Of a stretch of DNA of 46,236 nucleotides, positions 6,954-11,885 are shown one piece after another (the first letter of the stretch is position 1; each line of letters opens with the position of its first letter). This stretch comes from Nitrospirota bacterium. Its GTDB lineage: Bacteria; Nitrospirota; Nitrospiria; 2-01-FULL-66-17. The position numbers and the translations under genes are program-made. The DNA lies in assembly GCA_016201825.1 (NCBI GenBank), contig JACQCD010000136.1, forward strand, positions 1 to 46,236, written 5' to 3'. The notes under the pieces are model-generated. The model was not told where the DNA came from and ran no database searches. It worked only from the letters and a program-made list of their open reading frames with translations.

Positions 6954-7565
6954 ATGACGGTCTCGAAGTCTACGGCTCCCGCCGTGTGCTCCGACCGCGA
7001 CACCCTTCTGGGTCTCCTGTTCGAGCGCGCCTTTCGCTGCCATCCCGACCCGATGTTTCGCCTCGCGTCCGGGGCGATGAGCCGTTACTACTTCAACTGT
7101 AAGCTCGTCACCCTCGACCCGAAGGGGGCGAGTTTGGTCGGACGGCTGATGTTCGAGCGACTCCGAGGGCTCGACGTCAAAGGCGTCGGCGGATTGACCC
7201 TCGGGGCCGACCCCATCGCCGTCGCCACCGCGATCGCGAGTGAGGCCGCCGGCGAACCGATCCCCGCCTTCATCGTCCGGAAAGAACCGAAAGGACACGG
7301 GACCTCGCAATGGATCGAGGGCCCCCTGGCCGAGGGCGCTCCGGTCGCCGTGGTCGACGATGTGGTCACCACCGGAGGCTCCACCGAAAAAGCCCTCGAC
7401 ATTCTAATGAAGTTGGGGCATCCCATCCGCAAGGTAATGGCGCTCGTTGATCGGAACGAAGGGGGACGCGAGGCCCTCCGTCGGCGTGGTTTCGAGCTGG
7501 AGAGCCTCTACCACATCGACGATTTCACGACCCTGTGGAATGCCAGCCGTCCGAGAACCGTCTAA
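6954..7565 (+). CDS. pyrE: orotate phosphoribosyltransferase
   Basis: [22 protein letters not shown].. and the PRPP-binding motif [17 protein letters not shown]; the longer ORF upstream is antisense to rnpA. Confidence 0.93.
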
Positions 7566-7705
7566 TAACCTGTCGGGTGGGAATGCGGCCACCCGTCACG
7601 GCGGTTCCACGGTCAACCCCGCGGCGCGACCCGGCCGGCTCAGACGGCCCACCGCACGGGGGGTACGGCAACCGGGGCTTCGTCCCCGGACTGAAGGAGG
7701 GGCGT

Positions 7706-8545
7706 GTGCGAACACTTGGTACGGTGATGTCGATAGGGCTTGTCGGGGTGTCGGCCCTGGTCCTGCTGGCAACGGGTCCGATTCGGTCGGGTGCGTCGAT
7801 TCTCGCCGCGGACATCGTGCAGAAGTCCGAGGATGTGTATCCCGGCAAAGATCAGACGGCCAGACTGACCTTCACCATCAAGGAGTCCAAGGAGTCCGGC
7901 GGGGCGGAGCGGAAATCCGTCCTTCGCCGGTACTGGAAGAACTATCGAGGCCAGAGCGGGATGGACTTTAAGGTCCTCGTGTTCAACGAATATCCTCCGG
8001 ACGCCAAGGGCAGCTCGTTCATGCTCTGGGGCTACGATCCCCGCAGCGGGAAACCGGCCGACCGGTGGTTGTACATCCCCATCCTGAATAAGGTCAACAA
8101 GCTCGTCAACACGGTGACGGACACCGGCATCGCCAGCTCCGATCTCCAGCCCGGCGACATGGTCTCGCGCCCGGTGGAGCGAGACGACCACCGGCTGATC
8201 GGCGAGGAGGTCGTGGGAAACCGCACGTACTACGTCATCGAGAGCACCCCCAAGGGGCGCGACCCGTCCTATCCCTACGGCAAGCTGGTCAAATGGATCA
8301 CCAAGGACACGTTCCTCAAAGAGCGGATCGACTACTACGACCTCCAGGGAAAGCTGCTGAAAACCCAGGTGACGACGTGGAAACCGATCAAGGACGCGTG
8401 GGTCTGGGAAAAGGTCGTGATCACCAACGCCCAAACCGGAGCCGAGACCTATCTCAGCATCAACGACATCAGGACGAACATCGGCTTGGAAGATTCATTC
8501 TTCACCGAGCGCTCGATGAAGCAGGGGCTTGATCGTCTGCCATGA
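7706..8545 (+). CDS. outer-membrane lipoprotein-sorting-like protein (LolA-like fold family)
   Basis: AADIVQKSEDVYPGKDQTARLTFTIKE..SSFMLWGYDP..ADRWLYIPILNKV..ITKDTFLKERIDYYDLQGKLLKT; GTG start preceded by AAGGAGG; signal peptide. Confidence 0.75.
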   Translation: MRTLGTVMSIGLVGVSALVLLATGPIRSGASILAADIVQKSEDVYPGKDQTARLTFTIKESKESGGAERKSVLRRYWKNYRGQSGMDFKVLVFNEYPPDAKGSSFMLWGYDPRSGKPADRWLYIPILNKVNKLVNTVTDTGIASSDLQPGDMVSRPVERDDHRLIGEEVVGNRTYYVIESTPKGRDPSYPYGKLVKWITKDTFLKERIDYYDLQGKLLKTQVTTWKPIKDAWVWEKVVITNAQTGAETYLSINDIRTNIGLEDSFFTERSMKQGLDRLP

Positions 8546-10401
8546 CCGCTCAAGCCGCCCGGCAGAGTAAGGGCGGGTCGGTATCTCCGCCCCGAGCCCG
8601 TTTCCGCGTATGGCGCCCGCATTTGACGGCGCGCCTGGGGCTCTTCATCCTGATCGCCGGTCTCATGTCGGGTGGCGTCACCCTCGGGTTTATCTACTTC
8701 ATCGGGACCGCGACCCTCAAGGGCACGATCGGTCGCAGCTTTCAAGAGCTCGCCCACACGACCAGCTCCAACATCGAGACCCTGATCGAACACCAGATCG
8801 AAGAAGCTCGCCTCTTGGCCACGGCCCAGCCGGTGCTCTCGATCGTGGAGGAATCGAACGCCTTTTACGGCTCCGACCCACCGGAAGAAGTTCAGCGGCG
8901 GATCACCGACATCGATGAGCGTTGGCGGCACGCGCAGGGCGTCGACGCCTTTTTACTCGAAATCCGAGGGAATCGGGCGACGACCTACCTTCAGGATTTT
9001 GCGGCGCAGACGCCCGATCCGAAATTGTATCAGGCCGTCCTCGTCACCAACGCCTACGGGGCGCTCGTGGCCGCGGTCGGCCGCCCCGCCCGCTACGCCT
9101 ACGGCGAAACCGCGTGGTGGACTCACGCGTACCAGGGCGGCCAGGGCCGTCTCTTCGTCAGCGGCGTGGACCACGACTCCGAGCTCGGCCGAGACACCAT
9201 CATCGTGGCCACGCCGATCTTCAAGGACAAACGCGCGGTGGGCGTGCTCAGCATGGTGCACGACGCCGACGCCTTCTTCCGCGAAGTCACCTCGGCCAAG
9301 ATCGGGAAGACGGACCATACGATGATCATGACCAAGGAAGGCCGGGTCGTGTGCTGTCCCCCGGAACCGCCGGCCGGCCAACCGCTTGCCGCCGAGCAGA
9401 TCGCCGCCGTGACGCGTGACGAAAACGGGTGGGTGGCCACCACCGCCGATGCCCACTTTCCCGGCCGCGAATCGCTGAACGGTCACGCCCCCATTTCGAT
9501 CACCCGTACGCTGGGACCGGAGAATTTCGGGGGACACACGTGGTATGTCGTGACCAGCCAAGATCCCCGCGAGAGTTACGCCCCGATCTACACGCTGCTG
9601 GGCTGGACGGCCGTGGCGGGGGTTGTGGGCACGCTGATCTTCTCCTTGCTCGGGCTCTTGATCGCCCGCCGGATCGTCCGCCCGATTCAGGCGCTCCAAA
9701 CGGGAGCCGAGCTGATCGGGCAGGGGAATCTCAACCATCGCATCGACATCACGACCGGCGACGAAATCGAAGACCTCGCGAACCAGTTCAACAAAATGGC
9801 GCATAAACTGAAGCTGTTCTACATCGGCCTCGAGGAGAACGTCAAAGAGAAGAGCTGGAAACTCGAGCACCAGAATAAAGAACTGTCCATCCTCTACTCG
9901 ATCGCCGCGACGCTGAATCAGGCCTTGCCACTCAAAGAGCTGCTCGACGACACGCTCAATAAAATGCTCGTCGTCATGGAGGCGGACGGTGGGATGATTT
10001 GGATGGCCGACCCGCCGCCGGGATCGTCCCCGATCACGGCGACCAAGCTGCCCACGCTTTCTCCGGGACAGATGAGTAACCTCATCGAACTCATCCACTA
10101 CATCAGCCGCACCGTCCGCGAGAGCGGCGAACTCTGGACCACCGAAAATCTCGCCGTGGATGGGCGCCTCGAAGCCCTCAAATCCAGCGACCCCGGCTTC
10201 ATCTCGCTCGCCGGGATTCCTCTCGCTTCGCGCGATCACGTCTTGGGCATCTTGTTCCTGCTGTATCGCGACATCCGCGCCTTGACCTCGCGCGAGGAAA
10301 AATTGCTGGCCTCGGTGGGAGCGCAGATCGGCGTCACAATCGAGCACACCGCGCTCGCCGCCCAAACCCGGAGTCCCGCGGACGGCAGAACAAACCGTTA
10401 A
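8542..10401 (+). CDS. membrane sensor: extracytoplasmic Cache-like domain, TM, HAMP, GAF; no recognisable output domain
   Basis: N-terminal TM, large periplasmic region, second TM, RIVRPIQALQTGAELIGQGNLNHRIDITTGDEIEDLANQFNKMA (HAMP), then GAF-like C-terminus; no H-box or GG(D/E)EF. Confidence 0.8.
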   Translation: MTAQAARQSKGGSVSPPRARFRVWRPHLTARLGLFILIAGLMSGGVTLGFIYFIGTATLKGTIGRSFQELAHTTSSNIETLIEHQIEEARLLATAQPVLSIVEESNAFYGSDPPEEVQRRITDIDERWRHAQGVDAFLLEIRGNRATTYLQDFAAQTPDPKLYQAVLVTNAYGALVAAVGRPARYAYGETAWWTHAYQGGQGRLFVSGVDHDSELGRDTIIVATPIFKDKRAVGVLSMVHDADAFFREVTSAKIGKTDHTMIMTKEGRVVCCPPEPPAGQPLAAEQIAAVTRDENGWVATTADAHFPGRESLNGHAPISITRTLGPENFGGHTWYVVTSQDPRESYAPIYTLLGWTAVAGVVGTLIFSLLGLLIARRIVRPIQALQTGAELIGQGNLNHRIDITTGDEIEDLANQFNKMAHKLKLFYIGLEENVKEKSWKLEHQNKELSILYSIAATLNQALPLKELLDDTLNKMLVVMEADGGMIWMADPPPGSSPITATKLPTLSPGQMSNLIELIHYISRTVRESGELWTTENLAVDGRLEALKSSDPGFISLAGIPLASRDHVLGILFLLYRDIRALTSREEKLLASVGAQIGVTIEHTALAAQTRSPADGRTNR

Positions 10402-10407
10402 GCGGCC

Positions 10408-10428
10408 GCCCAGGAATATTTCCTGGGC
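10408..10428. other. perfect 9-bp inverted repeat (GCCCAGGAA-TAT-TTCCTGGGC) between sensor and ECF sigma genes; terminator or operator
   Basis: Seen directly; followed by GGTTTT rather than a long T tract. Confidence 0.6.
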
Positions 10429-10461
10429 CTGATCGGTTTTACGGTATACCAGCCCTAGTGG

Positions 10462-11064
10462 GTGACCATGCTCGGCTTCGGCGGACGGGAAGACGTCCAA
10501 AAAGCGGAATTCGAGGACTTGACTCTTCGGTATCTCGATTCGCTCTACGGGTTTGCCGTGGTGCTGACAGGCAACAGCGATGACGCGCACGATTTGGTTC
10601 AGGACGCCTACTTGCGCGCCTACCGCTTTTATCACCGGTACCAGCAAGTCACGAACTACAAAGCGTGGCTTTTTACCCTCACCAAGAACCTCTTCATCAA
10701 TCGCTACCACCAACGCGCTCGAGAAGTCTCGCTGACCGAGCTCGAAGTGGAGATCGACGATCCGTACGAGTCACCGAAGGAACTCTTGGTGGCGGCGCAC
10801 GGGCGACACGAGAAGGGTGTATTCCAACACGATTTTCGGTGGGCGATGGCCGCCTTGCCGGAGAAGTTGCGCCTCGCCGTGCTGCTCAAGGACATCGAAG
10901 GCTTCGATTATAAGGAGATCGCCGAGATCATGGGCTGCCCGTTGGGGACGGTCATGTCACGGCTCTCGCGGGGACGCAATCTCTTAAAGAAATCTCTGAA
11001 AGATTACTGGGTGACCGGTTCGCTCTCTGAGCCGGCCCATCGCATGCGTAAGGACCCGTCCTGA
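10462..11064 (+). CDS. ECF RNA polymerase sigma factor
   Basis: DAHDLVQDAYLRAYRFYHRYQQVTNYKAWLFTLTKNLFINRYHQR (sigma2) and LPEKLRLAVLLKDIEGFDYKEIAEIMGCPLGTVMSRLSRGRNLLKKSL (sigma4). Confidence 0.95.
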   Translation: MTMLGFGGREDVQKAEFEDLTLRYLDSLYGFAVVLTGNSDDAHDLVQDAYLRAYRFYHRYQQVTNYKAWLFTLTKNLFINRYHQRAREVSLTELEVEIDDPYESPKELLVAAHGRHEKGVFQHDFRWAMAALPEKLRLAVLLKDIEGFDYKEIAEIMGCPLGTVMSRLSRGRNLLKKSLKDYWVTGSLSEPAHRMRKDPS

Positions 11065-11885
11065 TGTACGACTGCTCGTCGGTTATGAAGATGATAGACC
11101 CCCACCTCGACGGCGAGCTGGACGTCAAAGAGTCGCTTCGCGTCCAGACCCACCTCCAGGAATGTCCGTACTGTCGCGAGAATTTCGTGTCCGAGCACGC
11201 GTTTCAGGATCTCCTCCGGCAGAATGCGTCGCCGACCCCAGCCCCCGAATTCGCCCGCCAATGTCTTTCGGCGGCGCTGTCGCGCGAAGCCCGACGGCAC
11301 CGGCCCGCGCGGGTACGATGGCCGTCTCCGCCCCTCTTCGCCGCCGTGGGGGCGGCCGCCGCCCTGCTCTGGTTCGTGTTCGTGGGGTTCTTCAGCGCAC
11401 CCATACCGGGTCTCGTCCAGTTGGCGGTTGACCAACACCGGGCCTACCTCAACCACCCCGACTCGCTCGACGTGACTAGCGACGACATCAGGGTGGTCGC
11501 CGCCTGGTTGAAGCGCGCCCTCGACTTCCACCCCGGATTATCGGTCGAACCGGTCGCGAATCTTCGTGTGGTGGGGGCTCGGGCGCTGGCCGATGGGGAC
11601 CGCCGGGCCGCACAGCTGGTGTACCGCCTTGGCAACGACACGGTGTCGCTGCTGATCACGCCGCCTCAGAATGTTCGCTTCTCCAGCCGGAACGTCATCG
11701 CGTTCAAGAACATCTTATTTCACCCTGCCGACGTCGATGGCTATCACACCCTACAGTGGTCGGACAACCGCCATACCTATGTTTTAGTTTCGGATCAGTC
11801 CAAGGCGGTGTACGAAGGGTGTGTGATCTGCCACAGCTCCAGTCAGAGCCGCGACACGACCGCCGGATTTCAGGAAGGGATCTGA
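11064..11885 (+). CDS. zf-HC2-type anti-sigma factor, one TM, C-terminal CxxCH motif
   Basis: DPHLDGELDVKESLRVQTHLQECPYCRENF (H..CxxC); TM LFAAVGAAAALLWFVFVGFF; C-terminus VYEGCVICHSSSQSRD; start overlaps the sigma stop. Confidence 0.85.
   Translation: MYDCSSVMKMIDPHLDGELDVKESLRVQTHLQECPYCRENFVSEHAFQDLLRQNASPTPAPEFARQCLSAALSREARRHRPARVRWPSPPLFAAVGAAAALLWFVFVGFFSAPIPGLVQLAVDQHRAYLNHPDSLDVTSDDIRVVAAWLKRALDFHPGLSVEPVANLRVVGARALADGDRRAAQLVYRLGNDTVSLLITPPQNVRFSSRNVIAFKNILFHPADVDGYHTLQWSDNRHTYVLVSDQSKAVYEGCVICHSSSQSRDTTAGFQEGI

Follow-up and report, generated by a model that had tools for sequence, protein, structure and literature searches.

An ECF sigma factor gene in the window, i.e. the whole stretch of 46,236 nucleotides of Nitrospirota DNA that was analysed, is followed by the gene of a transmembrane anti-sigma factor with a CxxCH motif near its C-terminus. 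Our preferred reading, which we rate slightly above an even chance, is that this anti-sigma factor is a c-type hemoprotein that senses peroxide or the redox state in the periplasm and releases the sigma factor for the transcription of peroxide defence and cytochrome genes. We propose more tentatively, a little short of even, that an RseB-C-like periplasmic domain acquired a cytochrome-type CxxCH and became a covalent heme-c peroxide or redox sensor, with direct control of a sigma factor that in Nitrospirota turns on the genes of cytochromes, a di-heme peroxidase and KatG/rubrerythrin. Heme attachment, the C-out topology, inhibition of the sigma factor, the signal and the release are steps that we infer. 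The features concerned are the following.

7535..8545, + strand: neighbouring gene, LolA-like / DUF1329 outer-membrane lipoprotein-sorting protein (PF17131 E 2.2e-40; synteny)
8542..10401, + strand: neighbouring gene, dCache-HAMP-GAF protein (Pfam; synteny in L024 and L055)
10413..10441, + strand: promoter-like site GGAATATTTCCTGGGCCTGATCGGTTTTA (-35 GGAATA, N15, -10-like CGGTTTTA), putative ECF promoter through which the sigma/anti-sigma pair would regulate itself
10462..11064, + strand: ECF sigma factor, GTG start (Pfam Sigma70_r2 E 9.8e-14, Sigma70_r4_2 E 5.3e-17)
11064..11885, + strand: transmembrane anti-sigma factor with CxxCH, ORF of 273 aa, ATG start
11073..11177, + strand: N-terminal zf-HC2 / ZAS domain, aa 4-38 with C4, H30, C34 and C37 (PF13490 E 3.5e-8)
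11334..11402, + strand: single transmembrane helix, about aa 91-113 (Kyte-Doolittle <=2.3 over 19 residues)
11406..11798, + strand: predicted periplasmic sensor domain, aa 115-245, two helices and an antiparallel sheet, RseB/MucB C-terminal-like (AF2, Foldseek)
11820..11834, + strand: CVICH, heme-c attachment motif, aa 253-257 (C, C and H invariant in ten full-length orthologs and a fragment)

The stop codon of the sigma gene and the start codon of the anti-sigma gene overlap by one base. A first, sequence-only reading had described the anti-sigma factor as a protein with a zf-HC2 motif, one transmembrane segment and a predicted periplasmic C-terminus ending with CVICH. This description agrees with the present results, i.e. 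PF13490 matches aa 4-38, one hydrophobic segment is found, and the codons TGT GTG ATC TGC CAC are present where the motif is listed. The PF13490 match recurs in 9/9 anti-sigma members, with C4, H30, C34 and C37 invariant, and a profile search with the ZAS domain against solved structures gave RsiW (5wuq, E 4.3e-9), RsrA (5frf, E 6.1e-8) and ChrR (0.03). As the sequence N-terminal of the transmembrane helix is Arg-rich, the C-terminus is predicted to be periplasmic (C-out); a cytoplasmic C-terminus had been named as one of the outcomes that would speak against a heme sensor.

Orthologs with CxxCH were searched for among 58 relatives and then more widely, in the phylum (396 genomes) and the class (270 genomes). 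They were found in 12 genomes (G000, which is the window's own, G001, G002, G004, G006, G036, G042, G050, G159, G302, G431 and G412) from six families within one class of Nitrospirota. Among these, G001 is Nitrospirae bacterium RIFCSPHIGHO2_01_FULL_66_17 (contig MHEO01000062) and G050 is Candidatus Manganitrophus sp. GAC4; f1, f2 and f14 are used below as family labels of the relatives' genomes. Ten orthologs are full length, whereas a contig end truncates the one in G412 and a frame change divides the one in G050. We note that the latter gene (L026, 7944-8830) lies in two frames, which reflects either a sequencing error or a broken gene.

The motif is kept in all ten full-length orthologs as well as in the fragment and the frame-split gene, in the variants CVICH, CLLCH, CVVCH, CHICH, CLICH, CQICH and CMICH. 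The aligned full-length orthologs are 24-65% identical to the window protein, and C253, C256 and H257 are among the few periplasmic residues that are invariant in this alignment; the conservation that had been suggested as a check is thus seen down to about 24% identity. No periplasmic Cys other than the CxxCH pair occurs in the ten full-length orthologs. The only other conserved periplasmic His or Met is H125. It is the one candidate for a distal heme ligand that conservation offers, and it was not accepted as such, being found also in homologs that have no CxxCH.

The sequence-only reading had further held that the tails of related anti-sigma proteins usually lack cysteines, and this is what we see: homologs of the same architecture without CxxCH end with VSDLNxxELxxF and contain no Cys there, whereas CxxCH members run on into ...YEGCVICH. 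Two such proteins, the paralogs L011 and L012, belong to the window's own family (f1), and the Manganitrophus orthologs are more distant from the window protein than these two are. When the tree is computed with the tail left out, both paralogs fall inside the CxxCH group (support 84 and 100), which makes a loss of the motif most likely. The node that joins all CxxCH members has a support of only 30, and a single gain of CxxCH is therefore plausible but not proven. In the window's family a CxxCH-less anti-sigma paralog was seen in L025 (8001-8780) and L062 (10207-11025), with no sigma gene nearby according to BLASTP.

A sigma gene adjoins the CxxCH anti-sigma gene in all complete loci inspected with the exception of G006, where the anti-sigma gene is present and BLASTP found no sigma gene within about 10 kb. 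Conservation of the dCache-HAMP-GAF gene beside the pair is confined to the window's own family. A second ECF sigma factor, which shares 81-85% identity with that of the window, is encoded in L064 (11630-12694, G000:C21) and L066 (9625-10650, G001:C39). There it is followed by a short ORF (about 86 aa) that consists of the zf-HC2 region only, with neither transmembrane segment nor periplasmic domain, and adjoined by a ribonucleotide-reductase-like gene; the PF13490 match of this short ORF is shown for L013. Another arrangement is found in L018 (1438-2277, G002:C8), in which one ORF encodes zf-HC2 and then a BTAD domain (PF03704), i.e. an anti-sigma-type zinc domain is joined to a transcriptional-activator domain.

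The periplasmic part was modelled with AF2 from a shallow alignment of 4 sequences (mean pLDDT 81.6, pTM 0.81). CxxCH lies at the end of the last well-modelled helix, and the tail beyond it is of low confidence. With this model Foldseek ranked TM1622 (1vr8) at the top with E 1.2e-3, followed by RseB (2v42, E 7.3e-3); the superposition on RseB/MucB 2p4b has an rmsd of 3.0 over 86 columns. For the RseB/MucB fold the probability is 0.99-1.0, yet E is about 7e-3 and TM 0.39. For DUF4367, one remote homolog (L031) exceeds the cut-off. Membership in MucB_RseB_C by sequence was rejected, since none of the members matches PF17188, which the E. coli RseB control matches at 5.6e-29; hhalign against one single RseB sequence also gave no match. 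As RseB/MucB is near the top of the Foldseek ranking and PF17188 is unmatched, the modelled domain is called RseB-C-like by fold and is not counted as a PF17188 member.

A c-type heme depends on a maturation system, the presence of which had also been raised as a check, and such systems were found: Cytochrom_C_asm (PF01578) proteins are encoded in 11/11 genomes tested. In the window's genome, contig C140 encodes CcmF (649 aa, CcmF_C E 1.3e-76) with a CcmC-like neighbour and, from reading the ORFs, an ABC exporter pair beside them. Three f2 genomes (G159, G302 and G431) have a second gene of the CcsB type (TIGR03144 E 3.9e-77 in G302), located apart from the ResB-linked copy and separated from the anti-sigma gene by 7-8 kb.

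Upstream of the sigma genes and their neighbours in relatives a common motif was found, GGAATA-N15-CTGTTW or a CGGTTTW variant. The exact pattern GGAATAWW-N13-CTGTTW has 13 sites in 11 anti-sigma genomes and none in the reversed control. Of the 13, 12 lie on the anti-sigma contig, within 20 kb, and there is no site in 18 genomes of the same families that have no CxxCH anti-sigma factor. The variant GGAATAWW-N14-GGTTTW has seven sites, six of them at anti-sigma loci, and is less specific, as the reversed control gave six matches.

The genes marked by the motif in relatives include the sigma gene itself. In f2 and f14 the motif precedes a gene for a Tat-exported phosphoesterase and then one for a SoxA/TsdA-type cytochrome c, and in f2 it also precedes a run of genes for Fur, rubrerythrin, a CCG Fe-S protein, DUF3501 and a KatG-type peroxidase. 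In Manganitrophus it stands before a CCP_MauG di-heme peroxidase gene, and in G006 before the gene of a CARDB protein (weak cupredoxin match) and two unknown genes. An exact site in G302 (L113, 1501-1527) is doubtful because it is about 600 bp upstream of the gene of an Oxidored_molyb protein, the other sites being 10-230 bp from the starts.

In the window the sole strong site is that at 10413, which precedes the GTG start of the sigma gene by 20 bp. With a matrix made from relatives, excluding the window, it scores 17.6 bits, as compared to 9.9 for the runner-up in the window, and among 3.7 million shuffled positions a single one scores as well. The window's whole genome contains just one other exact site of the GGTTTW variant. 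No matching site is present at the equivalent place in G001, and the one in G002 is degenerate, so that in the window's lineage the sigma/anti-sigma pair probably, though not certainly, regulates itself. In the window's genome the motif marks the sigma promoter and one doubtful site before a porin-like gene, i.e. the predicted peroxide regulon is seen in relatives only, and for the window's own lineage the promoter sites support autoregulation alone. A regulon of the window's own genome was also sought by a scan allowing one mismatch and was rejected, as the seven further sites have no coherent theme.

A palindrome, CCCAGGAATATTTCCTGGG, is located at 10410-10430 between the dCache and sigma genes and overlaps the promoter-like site. 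At this position G001 and G002 carry palindromes that differ from it, so that CCCAGGAATATTTCCTGGG may be a terminator or an operator instead of a part of the promoter.

According to the preferred reading, the cytochrome c maturation system would attach one heme to CxxCH after export of the C-terminal part, and in the resting state the ZAS domain would keep the sigma factor bound. If the heme is then oxidised, or reacts with peroxide or another small ligand, the periplasmic domain would change, which in turn would lead to release of the sigma factor either by regulated proteolysis or across the single transmembrane helix. The freed sigma factor would transcribe its own operon and, in relatives, the genes of the periplasmic c-type cytochrome, the di-heme peroxidase and the Fur/rubrerythrin/KatG peroxide defence. 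As the motif-marked genes of relatives encode peroxide-removing enzymes and c-type cytochromes, peroxide or the periplasmic redox state appears to be the likeliest signal, and it would be a better fit to the predicted target genes than the sensing of a gas. The sequence-only reading had suggested a redox or gas sensor with a covalent heme, and we find this interpretation supported in part. We counted for the heme-c sensor the conserved CxxCH, the fact that it holds the sole periplasmic Cys pair, the assembly proteins, the promoter motif, the genes behind its sites and the precedent of the sCache_heme domains described below. Counted against it were the lack of an obvious distal ligand, the regulon being drawn from relatives, G006 with no sigma gene nearby, and the shallow AF2 alignment.

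Other explanations of the tail have to be considered. That CxxCH is a chance motif without function could be suspected from its small size and from the otherwise poorly conserved tail, but in 200,000 shuffles of the periplasmic part, the two Cys and seven His of which were retained, C..CH arose in 0.05% (a probability of 0.0005 in one protein). This explanation is barely credible, and we reject it on the conservation across the orthologs. Alternatively, CxxCH could work without heme, as a periplasmic thiol-disulfide switch or a metal site that responds to oxidants or to redox carriers of the Dsb type. The CxxC spacing of the two Cys and an oxidant-defence regulon in relatives would suit this, but every ortholog has a His immediately behind CxxC, a residue for which a disulfide switch has no use, and a maturation system that recognises CxxCH is present, so we hold it quite improbable.

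Two further explanations keep the heme and change the signal. The anti-sigma factor could be a sentinel of heme attachment itself: an unstable apo-protein, left by a failure of heme supply or maturation, would free the sigma factor and raise the expression of cytochromes and CcsB. The shared cluster of a CcsB-type assembly gene and cytochromes in f2 genomes is in line with this, as is the position of the motif close to the very C-terminus, where the loaded or unloaded state could govern proteolysis; the predicted targets KatG, rubrerythrin and di-heme peroxidase, on the other hand, point to peroxide, and we give this explanation a small but real chance. It is also conceivable, with a low probability in our estimate, that the anti-sigma factor docks with a small cytochrome c regulated together with it and monitors the respiratory chain's redox poise rather than a diffusible ligand. 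In f2 and f14 genomes a gene for a mono-heme SoxA/TsdA-type cytochrome c is indeed found close to the pair, but the window has no such cytochrome beside the pair.

The window protein resembles the known ZAS anti-sigma factors RsiW (transmembrane) and RsrA and ChrR (soluble) in its profile-matched ZAS domain and in the overlap of its gene with the sigma gene, and RsiW also in having one transmembrane helix. It differs from all three in its predicted periplasmic domain with CxxCH, and to our knowledge none of them carries a covalent heme. ChrR is soluble and contains a cupin domain that binds metal, whereas the window protein bears a putative periplasmic heme motif. The predicted oxidative-stress output is, on the other hand, shared with oxidant-responsive ECF/anti-sigma pairs such as RpoE2-ChrR (PMC4336711). 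The C-terminal domain of RseB/MucB may resemble the modelled periplasmic domain in fold; RseB/MucB is a separate periplasmic protein, whereas the domain in the window is fused to the anti-sigma factor itself, has no PF17188 match and has the CxxCH tail added.

The closest precedent for the heme is found in sCache_heme (DUF3365/Tll0287) domains, e.g. those of Geobacter GSU0582 and GSU0935. According to PMC12889525, these are extracytoplasmic sensors of NO or redox with covalent heme c, which gained CxxCH from a short cytochrome-derived fragment. The window protein is similar in combining an extracytoplasmic sensor with a short CxxCH element. However, its CxxCH is at the C-terminus and not an insertion, and its predicted output is an anti-sigma factor, an output that the sections consulted of PMC12889525 do not describe for sCache_heme. 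Its membership in sCache_heme was rejected, as nine of the anti-sigma members gave no PF11845 match at E 0.1 and the top folds are TM1622 and RseB/MucB, not Cache. No anti-sigma factor with heme c or another covalent cofactor on the outside was found in the literature searched, which consisted mostly of non-subscription papers.

ECF sigma factors are a major bacterial route for envelope sensing. If the preferred reading is true, the anti-sigma factor would connect the chemistry of a periplasmic heme with transcription in a single protein, and its periplasmic domain would be the second fold, after Cache, to gain heme sensing via a small cytochrome-like motif. It would also provide a testable peroxide-response circuit in Nitrospirota, the Manganitrophus lineage included.
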